From Paracoccaceae bacterium (GTDB lineage Bacteria > Pseudomonadota > Alphaproteobacteria > Rhodobacterales > Rhodobacteraceae), in contig JAUYQR010000003.1 in NCBI GenBank assembly GCA_030697175.1, forward strand, positions 62,001-126,000: a DNA stretch of 64,000 nucleotides, read 5' to 3'. A program made the position numbers and the translations under genes. A model generated the notes under the pieces. It saw only the letters and a program-made list of their open reading frames with translations. It made no database searches and was not told the origin of the DNA. The number at the start of each line of letters is the position of its first letter. Within the stretch, counting starts at the first letter, position 1. Below are positions 11,859 to 31,741 of this stretch, one piece after another.

Positions 11859-13391
11859 ATGAGCGAGGTCAAGGCGGTTCGGTCAGGCCGTCAGGCACGT
11901 CAGGTGCAGCGGTCCGCCAAGGCCGGGCCGGGGCGGCCCTATATCGTGCGCAACATCCCGACCTATGACGTGCTGTCGGAAGAAAACCTGCTGCGCATCG
12001 AAGCCGCCGCCGACCGGGTGCTGGCCGAAACCGGGATCGAGTTCCGCGACGACCCGGTGGCCTTGGACCACTGGCGCCGCGCGGGTGCCGATGTGCAGGG
12101 CCTCCTGGTCAAGTTCCCGCCCGGAATGTTGCGCGAGATCCTGAAGTCCGCGCCCTCGACCTTTACCCAGCACGCCCGCAACCCGGCAAATTCGGTGCAG
12201 ATCGGCGGCAGGAACGTGGTCTTCGCCCCTGCCTATGGCAGCCCCTTCGTGATGGACCTCGACCGCGGCCGCCGCTTTGGCACGCTGGAGGATTTCCGGA
12301 ACTTCATCAAACTGGCGCAGTCATCCCCGAACTTCCACCACTCTGGCGGGACGATCTGCGAACCGACCGACATCGCGGTGAACAAGCGCCACCTCGACAT
12401 GGTGCTGGCGCATCTGGAACTCAGCGACCGGCCCTACATGGGATCGGTCACCGCGGAATCCCGCGCCGAAGACAGCATCGAGATGAGCCGCATCGTCTTT
12501 GGCCGCGACTTCGTCGACCAGAACTGCGTCATCCTTGGCAACGTCAACGTGAACTCGCCCCTTGTCTGGGACGGCACCATGACCAACGCCCTGCGCGCCT
12601 ATGCCCGCGCCAATCAGGCGGCGGTGATCGTGCCGTTCATCCTTGGTGGCGCGATGGGGCCGGTGACGAACGCGGGCGGCATCGTGCAATCCTTGGCCGA
12701 AACGATGGCCGGTTGCGCCCTGACGCAACTGGAACGCAAGGGCGCGCCGGTGATCTTCGGCAACTTCCTCAGTTCGATGTCGCTCCGCTCCGGCTCGCCC
12801 ACGTTCGGCACGCCGGAACCCGCGATCGGGTCGCAAGTGATCGGCCAGCTTGCGCGCCGCCTGAACCTGCCACTGCGCTGTTCGGGCAACTTTACCACCT
12901 CGAAGCTGCCCGACGGGCAGGCGATGATGGAAGGCACCATGTCGATGCTGGCGGCGGTGCATTGCGGGGCAAACTTCATCCTGCATTCCGCAGGCTTCCT
13001 GGATGGCCTGCTGTCGATGTCCTACGAGAAATTCATGATGGACGCCGACCTCTGCGGTGCGCTTCATTCCTACCTGGACGGGATCAAGATCGACGACGAC
13101 CAACTGGCGGTCGAGGCCTTTGCCGAGGTCGGCCCCGGCAACCACTTCTTCGGCTGCAGCCACACCATGAAACACTATGAAACGGCGTTCTGGGACAGCG
13201 AGCTGTCCGACAACGAACCCTATGAGAAATGGGAGGCCGCGGGCTCCACCGATGCCGCGACCCGCGCCAACACGCTATGGAAGCGGCGGCTTGCCGAGTT
13301 CGAGGCCCCCGCGCTGGATGACGGCATCCGTGACGGGCTCCATGACTTCGTCGCCCGCCGCAAGGCCGACATGGCCGACGCCTGGTACTGA
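11859..13391 (+). CDS. Trimethylamine methyltransferase (MttB) family protein, non-pyrrolysine
   Basis: 510-residue (beta/alpha)8 methyltransferase of the MttB superfamily, which moves a methyl group from a methylated amine to a corrinoid protein. Archaeal MttB uses pyrrolysine; this reading frame has no internal amber codon and shows ordinary residues around the expected loop (SGSPTFGTPEPA, about 311-322), so it belongs to the non-Pyl branch that includes glycine-betaine demethylases. Substrate is not predictable here. No cognate corrinoid protein or methyl-H4folate transferase is adjacent, but a corrinoid-activator-like gene lies about 15 kb away. GGAGGAG precedes the ATG. Its 3' end overlaps the convergent phosphoesterase gene by 117 bases. 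Confidence 0.85.
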   Translation: MSEVKAVRSGRQARQVQRSAKAGPGRPYIVRNIPTYDVLSEENLLRIEAAADRVLAETGIEFRDDPVALDHWRRAGADVQGLLVKFPPGMLREILKSAPSTFTQHARNPANSVQIGGRNVVFAPAYGSPFVMDLDRGRRFGTLEDFRNFIKLAQSSPNFHHSGGTICEPTDIAVNKRHLDMVLAHLELSDRPYMGSVTAESRAEDSIEMSRIVFGRDFVDQNCVILGNVNVNSPLVWDGTMTNALRAYARANQAAVIVPFILGGAMGPVTNAGGIVQSLAETMAGCALTQLERKGAPVIFGNFLSSMSLRSGSPTFGTPEPAIGSQVIGQLARRLNLPLRCSGNFTTSKLPDGQAMMEGTMSMLAAVHCGANFILHSAGFLDGLLSMSYEKFMMDADLCGALHSYLDGIKIDDDQLAVEAFAEVGPGNHFFGCSHTMKHYETAFWDSELSDNEPYEKWEAAGSTDAATRANTLWKRRLAEFEAPALDDGIRDGLHDFVARRKADMADAWY

Positions 13392-15958: not shown

Positions 15959-16477
15959 ATGAAACTGACTGACAGCCGCGAGATCAAGGCTGACCCGGCA
16001 ACCGTGTGGCGCGCAATCCTCGACCCCGACGTGCTGAAGGAATGCATCCCCGGCTGCGAAAGCCTGACCGGCAGCATCGCCGAAGGCTTCGAGGCGGCGG
16101 TGGTGCAGAAGGTCGGCCCGGTCAAGGCGCGCTTTACCGGCGTCGTGCATCTGACCGATATCGACGAAGGCCGCTCGGTGAAAATCTCGGGCGAGGGCAA
16201 GGGTGGCGCTGCGGGGTTCGCCAAGGGCGGCGCGGTGGTGACGCTGGAACCGATCCCGGAGGGCACCCGGCTGACCTATGACGTCGACGCCAGCGTCGGC
16301 GGCAAGATCGCCCAGCTTGGCAGCCGCATCATCGACGGCTTCGCCAAGAAGATGGCCGACGATTTCTTCGCCCGTTTCCAGCAGGCCGTGGAGGGGCCGG
16401 AAGCGGACGAGGTTGCTGCAACAGACGAGACGGATGAAAAGAAGAAAGGCTGGTTCAAGCGGTTGATCGGGGGCTGA
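15959..16477 (+). CDS. coxG: CoxG / SRPBCC-family carbon monoxide dehydrogenase subunit G-like
   Basis: 172 residues. SRPBCC fold (START-like) covering roughly the first 145 residues, with the conserved DPDVLKECIPGCESL motif of CoxG proteins, then an acidic linker and a basic, amphipathic tail ending KKKGWFKRLIGG that may bind the membrane. In Oligotropha CoxG helps anchor CO dehydrogenase to the membrane (family knowledge). The ATG at 15959 follows CGGGAGGGA; upstream in-frame codons lack family similarity. It heads coxG-coxS-coxL-coxM. Confidence 0.9.
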   Translation: MKLTDSREIKADPATVWRAILDPDVLKECIPGCESLTGSIAEGFEAAVVQKVGPVKARFTGVVHLTDIDEGRSVKISGEGKGGAAGFAKGGAVVTLEPIPEGTRLTYDVDASVGGKIAQLGSRIIDGFAKKMADDFFARFQQAVEGPEADEVAATDETDEKKKGWFKRLIGG

Positions 16478-16522
16478 CCCCGGACCACGCGGACCACAAG
16501 GACAATACAAGGGAGGATGACG

Positions 16523-17008
16523 ATGACGAAGGTCACGATGACCGTGAACGGCAAGTCCGTTTCGGCCGAAACCGAAGGGCGGACGCTGCTGTCGGCGTTC
16601 CTGCGCGAGGGGCTGGGGCTGACCGGCACCCACATCGGTTGCGACACCAGCCAATGCGGCGCCTGCGTGGTGCATGTCGACGGCAAGGCCGTCAAATCCT
16701 GCTCGGTCTTCGCGCAGGATGTGGCCGGCGCAAGCGTCAAGACGATCGAAGGCATGGCCAACGCCGACGGCTCGCTTGGTGTGATCCAGCAGGCGTTTCA
16801 GGACCATCACGGGCTTCAGTGCGGGTTCTGCACGCCGGGCATGGTGATGTCGGCGGCGGCTCTTCTGGCCGAAAACTCCAAGCCGAGCGAGGCCGACGTG
16901 CGCCACTACCTTGAGGGCAACATCTGCCGCTGCACCGGGTATCACAACATCGTCAAGGCCGTGATGGCTGCCTCCGGGCAGGACGTCAGCGCCTTGGCCG
17001 CCGAATAG
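16523..17008 (+). CDS. coxS: Molybdenum hydroxylase small (2Fe-2S) subunit, CoxS-like
   Basis: 161 residues with both iron-sulfur clusters of the xanthine-dehydrogenase family: plant-ferredoxin-type Cys 40, 45, 48 and 60, then the second cluster with Cys 100, 103, 135 and 137 (CGFCTPG and CRCTGY). It carries electrons from the Mo site to FAD. The ATG at 16523 has GGGAGG at proper spacing, whereas the ATG at 16517 would abut it. It lies between coxG and coxL. Confidence 0.96.
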
Positions 17009-17018
17009 GGGGAACCAG

Positions 17019-19394
17019 ATGCCGAAGGATTCAGGAATAGGCGCCAGCTCGAAGCGGCGCGAGGATATCCGCTTTCTGACCGGGCGCGGGGTCTATACCG
17101 ATGACATCACGCTGCACGGCGAACTGCATGCCGTGATGGTGCGCTCCACCGTGGCGAACGGCAAGATCGTGTCGGTCGGCACCGCGCGGGCCGAAACCAT
17201 GCCGGGCGTGCAGGCCGTGTTCACCGGGGCCGATTTCGCCGCCGTGGGTGGCAACCCCGCAGGCTGGCTGATCAATTCGCGCGATGGCACGCCGATGCGC
17301 GAACCGAAACGCCCGGTGCTGGCGCACGGCAAGGTCCGCCATGTCGGCGACGCCTATGCCGCCGTGGTGGCCAACACCTACGAACAGGCCCGCGATGCCG
17401 CGCAAGCCATCTCCGACGACACGGTGATCGAAGAACTGCCCGCCATCGTCAACATGGCCGCCGCCGTAGCAAACCCGGCCAACCGCGTGCATGACGAGAT
17501 CCCCGACAATGTCTGCTACGACTGGGGCTGGATCGAGGACAACCGCGCCAAGGTCGATGCCGCAATCAAATCCGCGCCGCACGTCACCACGCTGGAACTG
17601 GTGAACAACCGCCTGGTGCCAAACGCGATGGAGCCACGGGCCAGCATTGGCGAATACTTCCCCGGCACCGGTGATTACAAGCTTACCACCACCAGCCAGA
17701 ACCCGCACCTGACGCGGCTTCTGGTGGCGGCCTTCGTCCTCGGCATCCCGGAAAACAAGCTGACCGTGGTGGCCCCCGACGTCGGCGGCGGCTTCGGATC
17801 AAAGATCTACCACTACGGCGAAGAGGCGCTGGTTCTGGCTGCGGCGAAGAAGCTGCACCGCCCGGTGCGCTGGACGGCGGAACGGTCGGAAAGTTTCCTG
17901 TCCGATGCCCACGGTCGCGACCACGAGACGAAGATCGAACTTGCCAGCGATCTGGAAGGCAACTTCATCGCGATCCGCACCACGACGCTGGCGAACGTCG
18001 GTGCCTATCTGTCGAACTTCTCGACGGTGACGCCGACCTTCCTGCACGGCACCCTGATGGCCGGCCCCTACAAGGTGCCGAACGTCTATGTGAACGTGAA
18101 GACGGTGTTCACCAACACCGCCCCGGTCGATGCCTACCGTGGCGCGGGCCGCCCCGAAGCGACCTATTCGATCGAGCGGGTCGTGGACAAGATGTGCCGC
18201 GAGTTGAACCTTGATCCGTTCGAGGTGCGGCGCAAGAACTTCCTCACCACCGACATGTTTCCCTACACCACCCCGGTCGGCCTGGTTTACGACACCGGGA
18301 ACTATCAGGCCACGCTCGAAAAGGCCGTGCAACTGGCCGACGTGGCAGGCTTTGAAAAACGCGCCGCCGCGTCCAGGGCCAAGGGCCGCTTGCGCGGCAT
18401 GGGCCTGTCCACCTGGATCGAGGCGTGCGGCATCGCACCGTCGCATCTGGTGGGCATCCTTGGTGCGCGCGTCGGGCTTTACGACGCGGCAACCGTGCGG
18501 GTGAACGCCACCGGCAACCTTTCGGTCATGGTCGGCGCGCACAGCCACGGGCAGGGGCATGAGACCGTCTTTGCCCAGATTGTGTCGTCGAAACTCGGCG
18601 TGCCGGAATCCTCGGTCGAGATCGTCCACGGCGATACCTCGAAGATCCCCTTCGGCATGGGCTCCTACGGCTCGCGTTCCCTCGCCGTTTGCGGCGTGGC
18701 GATGGACAAGGCGCTCGACAAGATCATCGCCAAGGGCAAGAAGATCGCGGCCCACATGCTGGAGGCGGCCGAGGGTGACATCACCTTCGCCGATGGCAAG
18801 TTCAGCGTGGCAGGCACCGACAAGGCCAAGACCTTCGGCGAGATCGCCTTCTCGGCCTACGTCCCGCACAACTACCCGCTGGAGACGCTGGAGCCGGGGC
18901 TGGAGGAAACCGCGTTCTACGACCCCGCCAACTTCACCTACCCCGCAGGCGCCTACATCTGCGAGGTCGAGGTTGATCCCGACACCGGCCGCGTCGAAGT
19001 CGCCTCCTTCACCTGCGCCGACGATTTCGGCAACGTGATGAACCCGATGATCGTCGAAGGCCAGGTGCATGGCGGCGTCGGGCAGGGCATCGGGCAAGCC
19101 CTGCTGGAGAACGCGCATTACGATGAAAACGGCCAGCTTCTGACCGGGTCCTACATGGATTACGCGATGCCGCGCGCCGATGATGTGCCGTTCTACACCG
19201 TCGACCATTCCTGTTCGACGCCCTGCACGCACAATCCCTTGGGCGTGAAAGGCTGCGGCGAGGCGGGGGCCATCGGCTCGCCGCCTGCCGTGGTCAACGC
19301 GGTGATCGACGCGCTGCACCGCGCCGGCCACAAGATCGACCATATCGACATGCCGGTCTCGCCCTCGCGGGTGTGGTCGGCGATGAACGCCTGA
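17019..19394 (+). CDS. coxL: Molybdenum hydroxylase large subunit, form II CoxL-like
   Basis: 791-residue molybdopterin-cytosine-dinucleotide-binding subunit with the two aldehyde-oxidase/xanthine-dehydrogenase domains. The active-site loop reads AYRGAGR (372-378), the form II signature, not the AYxCSFR of true form I CO dehydrogenases, so the Cu-S-Mo centre is not supported. The catalytic base Glu is present in [10 protein letters not shown] (about 748). The real substrate is unknown; form II enzymes have been linked to CO only weakly. RBS AGGGGGAACC precedes the ATG. Confidence 0.95.
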
Positions 19395-19409
19395 AGCGGA
19401 GGACGGACA

Positions 19410-20198
19410 ATGCACAACTTCGATTTCGTGAAACCGGCCTCTGTCGCCGATGCGGTCGCCGCACTTTCCACCGAAGGCGCGCAGGCGCTTGGCGGCGGGC
19501 AGACCCTGATCGCCACCATGAAGCAGCGCCTTGCCGACCCCGCGGTGCTGGTCAGCCTGACCGGCATCGCGGACCTGCAGGGCGTTTGCATGGGCGACGG
19601 CGGCCTTCACGTCGGCGGGGCCACGCCCCATGCCGTCGTGGCGCGCGAGGCAGGAAAATATTACCCTGCTCTTGCCCATCTTGCGGGCGGCATCGGTGAT
19701 CCGGCGGTGCGCAACAAGGGCACCATCGGCGGCAGCCTTGCCAACAACGACCCCGCCGCCTGCTACCCTTCGGCGGCGCTCGCCTCGGGTGCCACCATCG
19801 TCACCAACCGCCGCAAGATCGCAGCCGACGACTACTTCCAGGGCATGTTCTCCACCGCCTTGGACGAGGGCGAGATCATCACATCGGTCGTCTTCCCGAT
19901 TCCGGAAAAGGCGTCTTATGTGAAGTTCAACCAACCGGCCAGCCGCTTTGCCCTGACCGGCGTCTTCGTCGCCAAATACGCAGGCGGCGTGCGGGTGGCG
20001 GCTACGGGTGCCTCCAACAACGGCGTGTTCCGCTGGAAGGCGGCGGAACAGGCGCTGTCGGCCAACTTTGCGGCCAGCGCCATCGCGGGTCTGACGGTGG
20101 ATGACGCCGACATGATCAGCGACCTGCACGGCACCCCCGCCTACCGCGCCAATCTGGTCAAGGTGCTGGCGGGCAGGGCGGTCAGCGCCGCCACCTGA
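19410..20198 (+). CDS. coxM: Molybdenum hydroxylase FAD-binding subunit, CoxM-like
   Basis: 262 residues, FAD-binding domain of the molybdopterin-dehydrogenase type with the GGGQTLI (about 28-34) and TIGGSLANNDPA motifs, then the CO dehydrogenase flavoprotein C-terminal domain. It accepts electrons from the Fe-S subunit and passes them to a quinone or other acceptor. It is the last gene of the set and is followed at once by a strong intrinsic terminator. No Mo-cofactor maturation genes (coxD, coxE, coxF) are in the window. Confidence 0.95.
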   Translation: MHNFDFVKPASVADAVAALSTEGAQALGGGQTLIATMKQRLADPAVLVSLTGIADLQGVCMGDGGLHVGGATPHAVVAREAGKYYPALAHLAGGIGDPAVRNKGTIGGSLANNDPAACYPSAALASGATIVTNRRKIAADDYFQGMFSTALDEGEIITSVVFPIPEKASYVKFNQPASRFALTGVFVAKYAGGVRVAATGASNNGVFRWKAAEQALSANFAASAIAGLTVDDADMISDLHGTPAYRANLVKVLAGRAVSAAT

Positions 20199-25848: not shown

Positions 25849-25924
25849 GTGCAGCCTGAGGTAAGACAGCCGCGCCGTCCCGTCAAGCCAGTACGGCATG
25901 CGGAACGGCGCGGGCATCAGGTCA

Positions 25925-25970
25925 CGGCAGCGGGCCATCGACCGGGGACTTGGCCTTAGGCCCGCTGCCG
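25925..25970. terminator. Long hairpin downstream of the fasciclin gene
   Basis: CGGCAGCGGGCC (25925-25936) and GGCCCGCTGCCG (25959-25970) form a perfect 12-bp stem with a 22-base loop, about 70 bases past the fasciclin stop. No T-run follows, so it may be a Rho-assisted terminator or an mRNA-stabilising stem. Nothing else is visible in 25849-26039. Confidence 0.5.
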
Positions 25971-26039
25971 CTTCGTGCCTGCCCTCCGTCGCCCGGCCGA
26001 GTGACGCGGCGCGGGCAGGCGGGGGGCAGGGGTCCGAAA

Positions 26040-26585
26040 TCACATCGCGGGCAGCATCACCGTGTCGATGACGTGGATCACGCCGTTCGATTGCTTGACG
26101 TCGGCGATGGTGACCGAGGCCACGTTGCCGGCTTCGTCCGTCAGCTTGATCATGTCGCCTTCATAGGACGCCTGCAGCGTGCAGCCGCCCAGCGTCGGCA
26201 CCGGATGCTTGCCGCCATCGTCCTTGATCATGCCATTCAGCGCTTCGGCCATCACGGCCTTGCCGACGACGTGGCAGGTCAGGATCTTGGTCAACTGGTC
26301 CTTGTTTTCCGGCTTCAGCAGGGTCTCGACCGTGCCGGCGGGCAGCTTGGCGAAGGCTTCGTTGGTCGGCGCGAACACGGTGAACGGGCCAGCGCCCGAC
26401 AGCGTTTCCACCAGGCCAGCGGCCTGCACGGCGGCGACCAGCGTGGTGTGATCGGCCGAGTTCACGGCGTTTTCGACGATGTTCTTGTCTTCATACATCG
26501 CCGCGCCGCCAACCATCGGGTTTTCAGCCAGCGCCATGCCGGTCGACAGGGCCAGGATCGCGGTTGCAAGGTGGAAAGCGTTCAT
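26040..26585 (-). CDS. Secreted fasciclin (FAS1) domain protein
   Basis: About 181 residues: signal peptide (about 1-20, ALSTGMALA), then one FAS1 domain with H1 motif GPFTVFAPTNEAFAKLP and H2-like NGVIHVIDTVMLP. FAS1 proteins are extracellular or periplasmic adhesion/ligand-binding proteins. The ATG at 26585 is used since the 12 residues before it break the signal peptide. It lies 111 bases downstream of the anti-sigma gene, on the same strand, a pairing often seen where the ECF sigma controls the FAS1 gene. Confidence 0.93.
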   Translation of the reverse strand: MNAFHLATAILALSTGMALAENPMVGGAAMYEDKNIVENAVNSADHTTLVAAVQAAGLVETLSGAGPFTVFAPTNEAFAKLPAGTVETLLKPENKDQLTKILTCHVVGKAVMAEALNGMIKDDGGKHPVPTLGGCTLQASYEGDMIKLTDEAGNVASVTIADVKQSNGVIHVIDTVMLPAM

Positions 26586-26650
26586 CAGGGTCACTCCAGG
26601 GTTCTGTTCAGGGCGGGCCAATCCCGCCTCACACCCGGAGTTACGGAGGC

Positions 26651-26679
26651 CTGCGGGGGTAAGTTTCAGTCCCCCGCAG
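26651..26679 (-). terminator. Hairpin between anti-sigma and fasciclin genes
   Basis: CTGCGGGGG/CCCCCGCAG, a 9-bp stem with an 11-base loop, 18 bases past the anti-sigma stop. It may end the sigma/anti-sigma transcript so that the fasciclin gene has its own promoter. No T-run is seen. Confidence 0.5.
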
Positions 26680-26696
26680 CGCTCACGCTTTCGTGA

Positions 26697-27362
26697 TCAT
26701 GTATCGCTGGTGACCGGTGCGGTCAGAATGACCGGCCCGGTCGGCAAACCGCTGGGCGACCCGCCTGCAGGCTCAACCGACACGGCAAACAGCCAGCCTG
26801 CCGGCGGCACGGGATAGTCGATCACAAGCGCCTCATCCTCAAGCAGACCCAGCGACACCGGCGATTGTCCCGGCGCGATGATCCACAGCTGATGCACTTG
26901 TCCTGCCGGGGCAGGCTGGCCCGCCACCCGCGTGGCAGTCAGACGGTCGCCGACATGGGTCAACTGGTAGGACAGCCCGGCATCCTTGGTTGCCAAGACC
27001 GCGACCACCTCCGGCGTTGGCGGCGCCAGGACCACAACCGCAGCCACCGCCACCGCGACCGCAAAGGCCATGCCCGACAGCCAGCCGAAAAGGCTTCGCT
27101 GCGGCTTTTCGGCTACGGGGAAGAGGCGGGCCTCGATCTTCGCCAAGACATCCGGCGCGGCCACCTCGGGCGTTTCGTCATCCAAAGGCGACAACCGTTG
27201 TTCCCAAGCAGCCACCCGCGCCGCAAACACGGTGTCAGCCTTCATCCGCGCCTCAACAGCGCTGCGGTCCGCCATGTCGAGAACACCCAGCACATATTCA
27301 CCGGCCAGCGCGTCGTCGTTGTCCTCAGGGCTGGCGTCAGGCTCAAGGGTAGTGTCGGTCAT
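26697..27362 (-). CDS. Anti-sigma factor, RskA-like
   Basis: 221 residues. An N-terminal cytosolic domain with ALAGEYVLGVLD (zinc-less anti-sigma domain), one membrane segment (about residues 92-112, GMAFAVAVAVAAVVVLA) and a C-terminal RskA domain facing the periplasm (VHQLWIIAPGQSPVSLGLL). It should bind and silence the ECF sigma factor until periplasmic proteolysis. ATG at 27362 overlaps the sigma stop by 4 bases, giving coupled synthesis of the pair. An upstream ATG at 27404 lies inside the sigma gene. Confidence 0.93.
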   Translation of the reverse strand: MTDTTLEPDASPEDNDDALAGEYVLGVLDMADRSAVEARMKADTVFAARVAAWEQRLSPLDDETPEVAAPDVLAKIEARLFPVAEKPQRSLFGWLSGMAFAVAVAVAAVVVLAPPTPEVVAVLATKDAGLSYQLTHVGDRLTATRVAGQPAPAGQVHQLWIIAPGQSPVSLGLLEDEALVIDYPVPPAGWLFAVSVEPAGGSPSGLPTGPVILTAPVTSDT

Positions 27363-27892
27363 TCCAGACACTCCTTCAATTTCAACAGGCTGCGACGCAG
27401 CCATGTCCGCATCGTGTTCAGCGGCACCCCATGGCGCGCGGCCAGATCGTCATAGGAAAGCCCATCAAGGTAGGCTCCCTTCACCGCTGCCGCGCGATCC
27501 GGCTCCAGCGTGGCAAAGCAGTCCGTCACCCGCCGCGCCTCGCCTTGCGCAATCAGCCGGGCCTCGGCGCGGGGTGTGCTGTCCTGCACCATGTCCAGTC
27601 CATCATCGCTTGCCGCCGCCGGGCGGCTGCGCAAGCGGTCAATCGCCAGATTGCGCGCAATCGCGATCAGCCAGGTCATGCCCCGGCCTTTCGTGGCGTC
27701 AAACCGCCCCGCGCGCGTCCAGACCCGTGTGTAGACCTCTTGCAAGGCATCCTCCGCCTCAGACCGTTCCCCCAAGATACGGAGCAGCACGCCCATGAGT
27801 TTCGCGGAACTGTCGCGATAAAGCGCACGAAACGCTGCCCGGTCTCCGGCGGCGCAATTCGCGATGTGGTTTGCTATCGGGTCGTCGGTCAT
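27359..27892 (-). CDS. ECF-type RNA polymerase sigma factor (SigK-like)
   Basis: 177 residues with region 2 (AFRALYRDSSAKLMGVLLRIL, EAEDALQEVYTRVW, ...TWLIAIARNLAIDRLR) and region 4 (LSYDDLAARHGVPLNTMRTWLRRSLLKLKECL). The linker to region 4 and the RskA partner place it with SigK/ECF19-like factors rather than RpoE-ChrR. First gene of sigma/anti-sigma/fasciclin. The promoter it recognises is not evident. Confidence 0.94.
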   Translation of the reverse strand: MTDDPIANHIANCAAGDRAAFRALYRDSSAKLMGVLLRILGERSEAEDALQEVYTRVWTRAGRFDATKGRGMTWLIAIARNLAIDRLRSRPAAASDDGLDMVQDSTPRAEARLIAQGEARRVTDCFATLEPDRAAAVKGAYLDGLSYDDLAARHGVPLNTMRTWLRRSLLKLKECLE

Positions 27893-27923
27893 CGCGTGAC
27901 GTTACCGGGGCAGGGCGCGCCTG

Positions 27924-29957
27924 TCACCCCCGCCGCCGCCGTCCACGGTCGCCCCCGGACCCCGAGGTATTGAAGCTGACCTCGGGCAGGGTGACGATCT
28001 TGCTCAGTTCGGGGAACGTATCGACTGCGTTCGGAATGGCGCTGGCGTTGACGAAATGCTCCTGAAAGCGTGGTTCGATGGCGGTTTCGACCTTGTGGAT
28101 CTCATGCACCGTCGCCTCGATTGCATCGCGCGAGGCGACGTTGCACAGCGCGATCCGCGCCCCCGTGCCTGCCGCGTTGCCCGCCGACACCACCTTGTCC
28201 AGCTTCACATCCGGAATCATCCCCAGGACCATCGCGTGCTTGGGGCTGATATGCGCGCCGAACGCTCCGGCCAGCGTGACCCGGTCCACCGTCTCCACGC
28301 CCATCTCGTCCATCAACAACTTGGCCCCGGCATAAAGCGCCGCCTTCGCCAACTGGATCGCGCGGATATCGCCCTGCGTCACGGTGATCAGCGGCCCGCC
28401 CTCCGCCGTGCCATCGTGCAGCACATAATCATGCGTCCGCCCGGTGCTGATGCTGCGCTGTGTCCCGGTCTGATCCGGCCCGCCAATCAGGCCACCCTGA
28501 TCGACCAGCCCCGCCATCCGCATCTCCGCCACCGCCTCGATGATGCCCGATCCGCAGATGCCGGTCACACCCGTCGAAGCGGTCGCTGCCGCAAACCCCG
28601 GATCGGTCGACCACAGGTCCGAGCCGATCACCTTGAACCGCGGCTCCTTGGTCGCGGGGTCGATCTCCACCCGCTCGATTGCCCCGGGTGCCGCGCGCTG
28701 GCCGGAACTGATCTGCGCGCCCTCGAACGCAGGCCCGGTGGGCGACGAACAGGCCAGCACCCGCGTCTTGTTGCCCAGCAAGATCTCCGCGTTGGTCCCC
28801 ACATCGACGATCAGCACCATGTCGTCCGACTTGCCGGGTTCCTCCGACAAGGCCACCGCCGCCGCATCCGCCCCGACATGCCCCGCGATACACGGCAGGA
28901 TATAGACCCGCGCCGAGGCGTTGATCACCGACAGATCCAGATCCCGCGCGTCCAAGCTGAGCGAACCGGAGGTCGCAAGCGCGAACGGCGCCTGACCCAG
29001 CTCCACCGGGTCGATCCCCAGAAGCAAATGGTGCATCACCGGGTTGCAGACGAACACCGTCTCGTAGATCGACGTTGCAGGCACCCCCGCCTCACCCGCC
29101 AAAGCCCCCGCCAGCGTGTTGATCGCCTCGCGCACCGCGCGGGTCATCTCGACGTCGCCCCCGGGGTTCATCATCGCATAGGAAACCCGGCTCATCAGGT
29201 CTTCGCCAAACCGGATCTGCGGGTTCATCACGCCGCTGGAGGCCAGCACCCGCCCATCCGCCAGATCGCAAAGATGCGCCGCGATGGTGGTCGATCCAAG
29301 GTCGATCGCCAACCCGTAAAGCGGCCCCTCGTTGAACCCGGGGAAGATATCCAGAATCCGGTGCCGCGCGTCGTGGTTGCCCTTGTGCAGCACCACCGTG
29401 ACCTTCCACTCGCCCTTGCGCAACGCGGGCTGCAACCGCCGCATCAACCCAAGGTCGCAGGTCACATCCTCGACCTGCCACTGGTCGCGCAGCGCAATCG
29501 CCAGCCGCTCGAAATCGCCGGTGGGTTCGTGCATGTCCGGTTCCGCCACCTCGACGTAAAGCGCGCGGGTGGCCGGGTCCATCGCGATCACCCGCTCGGT
29601 TGCCGACTTGCGGATCACCTGCTTGTGGACCTGGGATTCCGGCGGCACGTCGATCACCACGTCGCCCATCACCTTGGCCTGACAGCCCAGCCGCCGCCCG
29701 TCGATCAGCCCGCGAATGCGCTTGTAGCGATCCTCGACCGCGTTCCATTCGCTCAGCGCGTCCTCGGCGACGGTGACGCCATGCTTGGAGAAATCGCCAT
29801 AGCCCGGGGTGATCTGGCACTTGGAACAGATCCCCCGCCCGCCGCACACCGAATCAAGGTCCACCCCCAACTGCCGTGCCGCCGTCAGCACCGGCGTGCC
29901 CACGGCAAACCGCCCCCGTTTGCCCGAGGGCGTGAAAATCACCAGTGCGTCGCTCAT
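27924..29957 (-). CDS. ASKHA-domain iron-sulfur protein, reductive activator of corrinoid proteins (RACo/RamA type)
   Basis: 677 residues. N-terminal [2Fe-2S] ferredoxin domain (Cys 38, 44, 47 and 92), a linker, then an actin-like ATPase region (GLAIDLGSTTIAAHL; LIVDVGTNAEILLGN; VTLAGAFGAHISP), the architecture of RACo and related DUF4445 proteins that reduce Co(II) corrinoids to Co(I) with ATP. In Rhodobacterales such proteins usually accompany MttB-type methyltransferases; one lies about 15 kb upstream here. The C-terminal tail is Gly/Arg-rich (GSGGDRGRRRRG). It overlaps the cupin gene by 4 bases. Confidence 0.92.
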   Translation of the reverse strand: MSDALVIFTPSGKRGRFAVGTPVLTAARQLGVDLDSVCGGRGICSKCQITPGYGDFSKHGVTVAEDALSEWNAVEDRYKRIRGLIDGRRLGCQAKVMGDVVIDVPPESQVHKQVIRKSATERVIAMDPATRALYVEVAEPDMHEPTGDFERLAIALRDQWQVEDVTCDLGLMRRLQPALRKGEWKVTVVLHKGNHDARHRILDIFPGFNEGPLYGLAIDLGSTTIAAHLCDLADGRVLASSGVMNPQIRFGEDLMSRVSYAMMNPGGDVEMTRAVREAINTLAGALAGEAGVPATSIYETVFVCNPVMHHLLLGIDPVELGQAPFALATSGSLSLDARDLDLSVINASARVYILPCIAGHVGADAAAVALSEEPGKSDDMVLIVDVGTNAEILLGNKTRVLACSSPTGPAFEGAQISSGQRAAPGAIERVEIDPATKEPRFKVIGSDLWSTDPGFAAATASTGVTGICGSGIIEAVAEMRMAGLVDQGGLIGGPDQTGTQRSISTGRTHDYVLHDGTAEGGPLITVTQGDIRAIQLAKAALYAGAKLLMDEMGVETVDRVTLAGAFGAHISPKHAMVLGMIPDVKLDKVVSAGNAAGTGARIALCNVASRDAIEATVHEIHKVETAIEPRFQEHFVNASAIPNAVDTFPELSKIVTLPEVSFNTSGSGGDRGRRRRG

Positions 29958-30370
29958 TCCGGCCTTTGCCCCGCTGCGGGGTCCTCATGGGTAAAGTGGT
30001 AGGTTATCTGCTCAAAGCTGTCGCGGGCGAAGGTGTAGAACCAGCGCAGGGGCTTGGTCACCACCGGCACGCCATGTTCGGCCATCGAGGGTATGTAAAG
30101 CGCCACCCCCGGTGCCAGCCGATGCGCCACACCGTCGATGATCACGCGGCCCTCGCCGTCCAGCCCGAAATAAACCTCGGGCTCGACGTGGCGGTGTTGT
30201 GCAAAGGTCTGCCCCGGCTGCATTTCGGCCACGCCGCACACCAGACCCGCGGTTGGCGTCAGCCCCCCCGAAATCAGCGTTCGCCACGACAAGGTGCCGC
30301 GCGCCGGATCATCCCAGCGGGCGGGCACGCACTCCTGTGCCTCAATGCTTGTGGCGGTCGCTGACGTCAT
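29954..30370 (-). CDS. Cupin-domain protein
   Basis: 138 residues, a single small-barrel cupin with the metal motif HRHVEPEVYFGLDGEG (motif 1) and SMAEHGV (motif 2). Its stop overlaps the start of the corrinoid activator, so both are made together. Possible roles are sensing or modifying a small methylated substrate; resemblance to DMSP-lyase cupins is only structural. No strong ribosome site before the ATG at 30370. Confidence 0.85.
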   Translation of the reverse strand: MTSATATSIEAQECVPARWDDPARGTLSWRTLISGGLTPTAGLVCGVAEMQPGQTFAQHRHVEPEVYFGLDGEGRVIIDGVAHRLAPGVALYIPSMAEHGVPVVTKPLRWFYTFARDSFEQITYHFTHEDPAAGQRPE

Positions 30371-30507
30371 GCTGATCTGGTTCTAGACCGGGCAACGCCG
30401 GCTGCAATGGCAGAATGCGGCAGGTGGCAGCGCCATTCCGTCACCTTGTCAGCCAGCGCGCCGCAAGCGTCGTCGCACAAGGCCGGGTTACCGGTGCCGT
30501 GCGTTCC

Positions 30508-31668
30508 TTAATCCTGATCCAGCCATTCCAGAATTGCCGTCCTGTCCCCATCAAGCGCCGGGGCAGGGCCCAGCGCCGCAGGCTCCGGCAGCGTCGACAT
30601 CTTGATCGGGTTGCCGGTGGCGGTGAACGCTGGCCCACCGGGCCGGGGCGTCACCGGCATCACCATGTTGCGCGAAAGAAGTTGCGGGTCGCGCAACACC
30701 TCGGCCATGTTCTGCACCCGGCCTGTGGGCAAGCCCGCCGCTTCCAGAACGGTGATCCAGTGCGCCACCGGCGCGCCCAGCGTCACAGCCTCGATCAACC
30801 GCTTCAACAGCGCGTTGTTGTCGCAGCGCGCGGCATTGGTGGCAAAGCGCGGATCTTCCGCCAGCGCCAACCCCAACACGCCACACAACTTGCCGAACAT
30901 GTCGTCATTGCCCGCCGCGATCACCACGAACCCGTCTGCCGCGCGAAACGTCGAAAACGGCGTGATCGTCGGATGCCGCGCCCCGGTTGGCCCCGGCGGC
31001 ACGCCCGTGGCGCTGGTCAAGGCGACGGAATGTTCCTGAATGGCCAGTTGCGCATCCAGCATCGCCACATCGACCATTGCACCCACCCCCGTCCGCTCGC
31101 GGTGATAAAGTGCCGCCAGCACGCCCTGCGCCAGAAACATCCCCGCCACGATATCGCCGATGGAGGCACCAACCCGCACCGGTGGCCCGCCCGCCTCGCC
31201 GGTGATCGACATCACCCCGCCGCGCGCCTGCACCACCATGTCATACGCGGGCTTGCCCGCATCCGGCCCGGTCTGCCCGAACCCCGACACCGCGCCATAG
31301 ATCAGCCGGGGGTGCCGCGCGTGCAGGCTGTCCCAGCCATAGCCAAGCCGCGCCATCACGCCGGGCCGGTAGTTTTCCAGCAACACATCCGCCCGCGCCA
31401 GAAGCCGCCCGAAGATCGCCCTGTCGGCTTCCGCCTTCAGATCCAGCGCAATCGACTGCTTGCCGGCATTCAGCGTGGCAAAATACGCGCTCTCGCCTTT
31501 CACGAACGGCGGATACGCCCGCGTGTCATCGCCCGTTCCCGGCCGCTCCACCTTGATCACCCGCGCGCCAAGATCGCCAAGCGTCTGGCTGCAATACGGC
31601 CCTGCCAGCACATGCGTCAGGTCCAGAACGATAATTCCCGTCAGGGGGGCCATGCCATGCTCCATCAT
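30508..31668 (-). CDS. CaiB/BaiF family CoA-transferase
   Basis: 386 residues of the class III (formyl-CoA type) transferase family, with VLDLTHVLAGPYCSQTLGDLGARVIKVE at the N terminus (catalytic Asp usually in the later VDVAMLDAQLA region) and LIYGAVSGFGQTGP. It moves CoA between acids; substrate unknown. Start is M1 (31668) with AAGGAAGGG upstream, or M6. Divergent from the ABC-F gene with a 73-base gap and separated from the cupin by 137 bases that hold nothing recognisable. Confidence 0.9.
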   Translation of the reverse strand: MMEHGMAPLTGIIVLDLTHVLAGPYCSQTLGDLGARVIKVERPGTGDDTRAYPPFVKGESAYFATLNAGKQSIALDLKAEADRAIFGRLLARADVLLENYRPGVMARLGYGWDSLHARHPRLIYGAVSGFGQTGPDAGKPAYDMVVQARGGVMSITGEAGGPPVRVGASIGDIVAGMFLAQGVLAALYHRERTGVGAMVDVAMLDAQLAIQEHSVALTSATGVPPGPTGARHPTITPFSTFRAADGFVVIAAGNDDMFGKLCGVLGLALAEDPRFATNAARCDNNALLKRLIEAVTLGAPVAHWITVLEAAGLPTGRVQNMAEVLRDPQLLSRNMVMPVTPRPGGPAFTATGNPIKMSTLPEPAALGPAPALDGDRTAILEWLDQD

Positions 31669-31741
31669 TTCCGCGCCCTTCCTTGCATCTTGCGGGTCGC
31701 CAGACGTTGACGCGGATCAATTCCCTCTCTACCTCGCCCGC

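Follow-up and report, generated by a model that had tools for sequence, protein, structure and literature searches.

Why is the gene for a small cupin joined to the gene for a corrinoid activator? This question is raised by a 64,000-nucleotide stretch of the genome of a Paracoccaceae bacterium (contig JAUYQR010000003.1; the whole stretch is referred to as the window), in which, according to the coordinates of the open reading frames (ORFs), the 3' end of a cupin gene and the 5' end of a gene for a RACo-type activator have the four nucleotides ATGA in common (Table 1). A sequence-only reading of the window had pointed to this 4-base overlap and named the activator a RACo/RamA-like protein; the overlap is confirmed at the nucleotide level, and the Pfam domains and ferredoxin-type cysteines described below bear out the name. 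The explanation we favour, to which we give about an even chance, is that the cupin takes no part in Co(II) reduction and is a small enzyme of predicted lyase type, dependent on a metal and expressed together with genes of corrinoid metabolism.

The activator carries the linker, middle and C-terminal ASKHA domains of RACo (PF17650, PF17651 and PF14574), all far above the Pfam gathering score. A ferredoxin-type cysteine set of the 2Fe-2S type, C38-x5-C44-x2-C47...C92, lies near its N-terminus, where CGGRGICSKC aligns with CGGAGTCGKC of 3zyy; the Fer2 models of Pfam did not reach an E value of 0.001 for this region. Among solved structures, 3zyy is the best match (E 5.7e-83); it aligns almost end to end, over query residues 2-649 of 677. 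Both 3zyy and 4c1n, labelled 'iron-sulfur cluster binding protein' in the PDB table, are presumably RACo of Carboxydothermus hydrogenoformans. By analogy with its studied relatives, this RACo-type protein would therefore be expected to reduce Co(II) to Co(I) in an ATP-dependent manner. Two narrower names, AcsV (NCBIfam NF040756; 386 of 800 bits) and methylamine RamA (TIGR04270; 96 of 500 bits), are unsuitable because the scores lie below the curated cut-offs. An open frame of 648 residues on the plus strand (28056-30002) overlaps both genes. It is judged to be spurious and to arise from G+C-rich codon usage, because it is antisense to RACo and because a codon-usage gene caller, trained on genes of the window with RACo in the training set, kept the minus-strand genes.

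The best Pfam match of the cupin is Cupin_2, and its nearest solved relative is DddK, a lyase of dimethylsulfoniopropionate (DMSP) and of DMSOP. Searched singly against the PDB, the cupin has DddK as its top match (1.3e-9). A profile built from 40 cupins (12 linked to RACo; 27 of the 45 unlinked cupins of the family, chosen as already fetched; and one from Rubrobacter; the shortened copy of genome G179 is excluded) scores DddK at 1.3e-25 (92.6 bits) and the next family at 9.5e-10 (41.3 bits), a gap of about 50 bits. The AlphaFold model of the cupin has a mean predicted local distance difference test score (pLDDT) of 94.4, and DddK ranks first for this model both by Foldseek (9.7e-11) and by VIA-align (Z 18.0, root-mean-square deviation 1.4, 121 residues aligned), the next family in VIA-align being RemF (Z 14.9). 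DddQ (4b29, 5cu1) takes ranks 15 and 18 in Foldseek and is not among the 50 VIA-align matches listed.

PMC10686828 assigns His56, His58, Glu62 and His96 of DddK to metal binding, Tyr64 and Tyr122 to catalysis, and Tyr21, Trp26, Phe108, Trp110 and Phe117 to an aromatic cage for the sulfonium, and the chemistry is also described in PMC12582016. H59, H61, E65 and H99 of the window cupin, its predicted metal ligands, correspond to the four metal-binding residues of DddK, and the catalytic-type Y67 and Y124 to Tyr64 and Tyr122. The equivalents of all six residues, together with that of Phe117, are invariant in the 40 aligned cupins. The Trp26 position is Trp in 38 of the 40 and Phe in two; that of Phe108 is Trp or Phe in all 12 linked cupins and Phe in 22 of the 28 unlinked ones; that of Trp110 is Tyr throughout (40/40). 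The cage of the window cupin consists of R24, W29, W110, Y112 and F119, so that four of the five residues are aromatic, Tyr21 is lost and the cage of DddK is incomplete. The C-terminal part of this pattern does not appear in ordinary cupins, weaker matches that were taken as a contrast: the alignment to the family profile stops before, or lacks, the C-terminal F-x4-Y stretch in L014-L023, and W-x4-Y is retained at this stretch in L013, L142 and L143. As judged from these residues and from the model, the cupin may work, if at all, like a metalloenzyme of the DddK type. The replacement of Tyr21 by Arg in 9 of the 12 linked cupins makes DMSP doubtful as the substrate and argues that the substrate is not simply DMSP; given this changed cage residue, annotation of the cupin as a DMSP lyase would be unwarranted.

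The pairing of the two genes was followed through the family Rhodobacteraceae in 394 genomes, one per genus as listed, with cut-offs of E 1e-100 for RACo and 1e-15 for the cupin; the RACo and cupin surveys are taken to cover the same 394 genomes since the handles agree. RACo is near-universal (371 genomes) and the cupin occurs in 57. In 12 of these 57 (the window genome, G215, G322, G145, G391, G128, G202, G028, G271, G159, G179 and G007), the cupin gene immediately precedes RACo in the same orientation, and a 13th pair is found in Rhodobacter sp. SY28-1 (L001). The pairing exceeds chance, because same-strand adjacency recurs in 13 loci and the identical 4-nucleotide ATGA overlap in six of them (window, L001, L084, L085, L086 and L088); the other seven junctions range from an 11-nucleotide overlap (L092, where the start was chosen by the analyst) to a 234-nucleotide gap. 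All of the ten best-scoring cupin matches of the family are RACo-linked. A scan of genome contigs with the cupin returned three relatives, with only L001 linked to RACo, and the plasmid collection yielded one cupin, near a glycosyltransferase.

Outside the family, no cupin was found within the 1.5-kb flanks of 25 RACo loci, the best 25 of 72 class genomes with RACo at 1e-60; in 24 of these 25, the neighbour of RACo is mtgD, the commonest one. When the class was searched with a profile of the linked cupins, 9 of 385 genomes gave a match, including two of the family; for the seven outside it, none of the loci retrieved has RACo beside the cupin. By title or abstract, no published pairing of a cupin with RACo, a RamA-type protein or corrinoid activation was found in the open-licence literature searched. 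Conservation of the pair, a matter raised by the sequence-only reading, therefore stands for 12 genera and one named genome and does not extend beyond a single family, within which 45 of the 57 cupins are unlinked.

Two observations concern what surrounds such genes elsewhere. In 15 of 20 loci with unlinked DddK-like cupins (L104-L123), a sulfur-transport gene (PF04143 cluster), a cluster of major facilitator superfamily transporters or both lie nearby, and this transporter neighbourhood forms a second conserved context of DddK-like cupins. In Sinorhizobium meliloti (L055, 7613-7951, plus strand), a 112-residue Ala-rich protein, not a cupin by eye, is encoded between mtgD and RACo and occupies the slot held by the cupin in some Rhodobacteraceae.

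What RACo would act on is suggested by the rest of the genome. The MetH reactivation domain PF02965 has no match in this genome and is present in 7 of 14 control genomes. The genome encodes one RACo, one DUF1638 and five MttB proteins. The DUF1638 gene adjoins a homocysteine-methyltransferase gene, whose product scores 618 bits and thus above the 338-bit cut-off of the NCBIfam betaine-homocysteine methyltransferase, and a gene for an MtgC-like B12-binding protein, which scores under the NCBIfam MtgC cut-offs. An mtgD gene, 90% identical to the mtgD of a relative used as the query, lies on the same contig as RACo at a distance of about 114 kb. Separate homocysteine, cobalamin and pterin modules (mtgE-, mtgC- and mtgD-type) are thus present along with DUF1638 and the RamA-like protein. 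In PMC5764234, fitness data mark a RamA-like protein of Phaeobacter as important for methionine synthesis and assign it to B12 reactivation. PMC12478193 reports a higher abundance of RamA and DUF1638 on N-osmolytes and the use of mtgC and mtgD in both methionine synthesis and betaine demethylation by the MtgBCDE system; MtgE is described there as a homologue of a predicted Bhmt. The genes found here correspond to the split methionine synthase and to the MtgBCDE system, so that relatives lend good support to the view that RACo reactivates MtgC.

Ahead of mtgD, this genome has a small gene similar to the 'virulence factor' gene (PF13769) of relatives, followed by a second, unnamed gene. The position of this second gene would suggest metF, but neither Pfam nor NCBIfam gives a match at 1e-5, and BLASTP shows no similarity to the annotated methylenetetrahydrofolate reductase of Paracoccus aminovorans. 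Its counterpart in L085 shares 83% identity with it, and a gene of this kind, 308-321 codons long, is conserved between the PF13769 gene and mtgD (L134, 521-1486; L085, 1177-2103).

The gene order mtgD-cupin-RACo is found in 3 of the 13 paired loci (L087, L092 and L094), and mtgD-RTX protein-cupin-RACo in L085. The gene upstream of the cupin codes for a dCTP deaminase in L086, L090, L091 and L093, for a CoA-transferase in the window, L088 and L089 and, with an ORF between, in L001, and for a divergent ABC-F-type protein in L084. These gene orders suggest that the cupin gene was probably inserted between mtgD and RACo and remained attached to RACo when the latter relocated. In a cupin tree of 41 rows (same-genome duplicates dropped, the shortened L093 included), the linked cupins stand nearly together, with 2 label changes, a number as low as which was reached in 0 of 500 shuffles; L094 falls outside this group, the Rubrobacter row L002 falls inside with weak support, and most branches are weak. 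A tree of RACo with 50 rows, from which four duplicate loci were removed, requires 7 label changes, and the RACo proteins of L001 and L084 are placed apart from that of the window. When the neighbouring proteins of 19 loci are compared with those of the window, L001 and L084 give the best matches for the cupin (76-77% identity), the sigma factor (83-87%) and the anti-sigma factor (62%), and L001 also for the CoA-transferase (83%); the fasciclin-domain proteins of L001 and L084 are 80% and 77% identical versus 85-87% in L090 and L091, and their RACo reaches 77%, below the 81-87% of 16 other loci and above the 75% of L094. As far as these identities tell, RACo has apparently been replaced in place by a diverged copy in L001 and L084 with the cupin and the neighbouring genes kept, which argues against a tight protein partnership.

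Under the explanation that we favour, RACo would drive the ATP-dependent return of Co(II) to Co(I) on MtgC, the cobalamin protein common to the split methionine synthase and the glycine-betaine demethylase, and this step would require no cupin. In the cupin, a divalent metal held by H59, H61, E65 and H99 would bind the carboxylate of a substrate, and Y67, together with Y124, would act as the base that abstracts a proton, leading to elimination or a related small-molecule reaction. The cupin and RACo would be cotranslated because the substrate or product of the cupin would fall within the methylated-compound and one-carbon metabolism served by MtgC, MtgD and RACo. Going further, it is conceivable, though rather doubtful, that a DddK-type cupin lyase has been recruited into aerobic corrinoid methyl metabolism through translational coupling to RACo; the cupin would then remove or open a substrate-derived carboxylate, for example that of an onium carboxylate other than DMSP, and methyl transfer by MtgC and lyase chemistry would run as a single pathway. 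To our knowledge, no link between such a lyase and a corrinoid demethylation route has been described.

Several observations weigh against the favoured explanation. The 45 unlinked family cupins are those for which RACo lies on another contig, is distant by coordinates or is not in the fetched flanks, some of which span only 1.5 kb. Nine close relatives of the window RACo (L095-L103, 81-86% identity) have no cupin in the fetched stretch, and their genomes are not among the 57 with a cupin. Elsewhere the position upstream of RACo is taken by a CoA-transferase III relative, an RTX protein or a small ORF. The linked cupin of G179 ends at 107 residues, before the C-terminal tyrosines, next to an open RACo frame of 682 residues; an assembly fault in this draft genome is a possible cause. 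The identity to DddK is low, 22-25%, and cupins switch function easily. At the Tyr21 position, the linked cupins other than those with Arg have Lys, Cys and Phe once each, so that 11 of the 12 have Arg, Lys or Cys, and 25 of the 28 unlinked cupins have Phe or Tyr. Finally, the lack of a metF match leaves mtgD as the sole carrier of the one-carbon character of the old RACo locus.

Many of these points would be expected if the slot before RACo simply collected unrelated genes and the cupin shared transcription, not a pathway, with its neighbour. We regard such hitch-hiking as a serious rival, if on balance an unlikely one: the upstream neighbour of RACo varies widely (mtgD, CoA-transferase III, RTX protein, dCTP deaminase or small ORF), the cupin is patchy and shortened in G179, and RACo was swapped without the cupin in L001 and L084, but the cupin-RACo junction persists behind at least four different upstream genes with the exact ATGA in almost half of the loci, and the near-single grouping of the linked cupins, together with the linkage of all ten best family matches, also speaks against it. 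If the cupin were instead a true lyase of DMSP or dimethylsulfoxonium propionate, that is a DddK orthologue in an operon with RACo that feeds DMSP or its products into one-carbon metabolism, DddK would indeed be expected as the clearly nearest solved relative with metal ligands and both catalytic tyrosines invariant; the low identity, the Tyr21-to-Arg change in most linked cupins, the Tyr at the Trp110 position in every cupin aligned and the occurrence of sequences with the DddK WIFPT stretch in other genomes (L013 and L142) make this decidedly doubtful.

The sequence-only reading had raised the cupin as a partner in corrinoid activation, which could mean delivery of electrons, cobalamin or metal to RACo or MtgC, and had added that it may sense or process the methylated substrate. 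The overlap in six loci and the mtgD-cupin-RACo order in three fit an activation partner, but RACo occurs in 371 family genomes with the cupin adjoining in only 12, none of the 25 loci outside the family has it, two loci retain the cupin beside a diverged RACo, the G179 cupin is cut short, and the conserved residues fit a small-molecule active site. Moreover, the part of PMC5764234 on methionine synthesis names five Phaeobacter genes, none of them a cupin, and the word cupin is absent from the main text of PMC12478193. An activation partnership is therefore very unlikely. Processing of a substrate is a fair lead, because the active site of the cupin resembles that of DddK, which handles a methylated onium carboxylate. 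As for sensing, a ligand-binding sensor that regulates the operon with the downstream pair of extracytoplasmic function (ECF) sigma and anti-sigma factors would agree with the presence of a sigma gene behind RACo in 10 of the 13 paired loci and an anti-sigma gene in 9 (L094 stops at the contig end), but such genes also follow RACo in 6 of the 9 cupin-less loci (L095-L098, L101 and L103), no DNA-binding or anti-sigma domain was found in the cupin by Pfam, and invariant catalytic-type tyrosines are unnecessary for sensing, so that we consider it very unlikely.

Table 1. Coordinates of the cupin-RACo pair and of other features in the window.
Feature	Position	Strand	Remarks
Cupin gene	30370-29954	minus	138 residues, ATG start, single-domain, DddK-like
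RACo-type corrinoid reductive activator gene	29957-27924	minus	677 residues, ATG start
ATGA overlap	29954..29957	minus	cupin stop TGA and RACo start ATG
CoA-transferase family III (CaiB/BaiF type)	30508..31668	minus	137 nucleotides upstream of the cupin
ECF sigma factor	27359..27892	minus	31 nucleotides downstream of RACo
RskA-type anti-sigma factor	26697..27362	minus	downstream of the ECF sigma factor
Fasciclin-domain protein	26040..26594	minus	frequent downstream neighbour of RACo
MttB-family methyltransferase	11859-13391	plus	free of in-frame stops; the genome has five such proteins

Within the window, no methyltransferase gene adjoins the cupin-RACo pair. No substrate can be read from the CoA-transferase, since all of its NCBIfam matches lie below the cut-off, the best being CoA:oxalate CoA-transferase with 373 of 522 bits. 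In a set of 29 RACo loci of the family (1.5-kb flanks), the flanks contain a CoA-transferase III relative in 10 cases, mtgD in 4 and the cupin in 2, so that the CoA-transferase relative is the commoner neighbour. ECF sigma, anti-sigma and fasciclin genes stand behind RACo in many genera, with or without a cupin. Past the fasciclin gene, genes for glucose-6-phosphate dehydrogenase, a phosphogluconolactonase-type protein and phosphoglucose isomerase follow on the plus strand. A scan of positions 25900-31700 gave 0 sigma-70-type promoters (0.6 in shuffles) and 1 terminator-like site (3.2 in shuffles). The MttB protein of the window scores under the NCBIfam cut-off for trimethylamine methyltransferase, and a CoxG gene and a cluster for a molybdenum hydroxylase (CoxS/L/M-like), at 15959-20198, start about 2.6 kb beyond it.

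In the use of osmolytes by Rhodobacteraceae, corrinoid betaine demethylation and the split methionine synthase hold a central place. If the favoured explanation is true, the link of a lyase-like cupin to the activator gene would indicate that this metabolism includes a substrate, or a route for a by-product, that has yet to be described. What is new here is the DddK-like identity of the RACo-linked cupin, as judged from its sequence and modelled fold. The pairing with RACo is real yet patchy. The 'cupin' of these operons is thus DddK-like and not generic, and DddK-like sequences need not be DMSP lyases.

Among systems already known, the Carboxydothermus hydrogenoformans RACo (3zyy, 4c1n) has the linker, middle and ASKHA domains in common with the window protein; it acts on the corrinoid protein of the acetyl-CoA pathway, and we know of no cupin beside it. 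PGA1_c15200 of Phaeobacter inhibens and RamA of Ruegeria pomeroyi (SPO2041) are alike in the described layout of ferredoxin and DUF4445 domains, where we take DUF4445 to be the C-terminal domain of RACo; they also agree with the window in that RACo is near-universal in the family and split-MetH parts occur in the same genome, but the window RACo is coupled to a cupin and followed by sigma and anti-sigma genes. DddK of Pelagibacter (PDB 5tfz, 6a53) resembles the window cupin in sequence, fold, metal ligands and catalytic tyrosines and differs from it in the low identity given above, in Arg and Tyr in place of Tyr21 and Trp110, and in the genomic partner, which is RACo here. In the mtgD-RACo loci of other Pseudomonadota, for example Paracoccus aminovorans, Sinorhizobium meliloti and Azoarcus, RACo follows close behind the gene for a methyltetrahydrofolate:cobalamin methyltransferase or pterin-binding protein, and the mtgD of P. 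aminovorans shares 66% identity with the one of the family; in the window, in contrast, RACo is separated from mtgD and has the cupin upstream instead.

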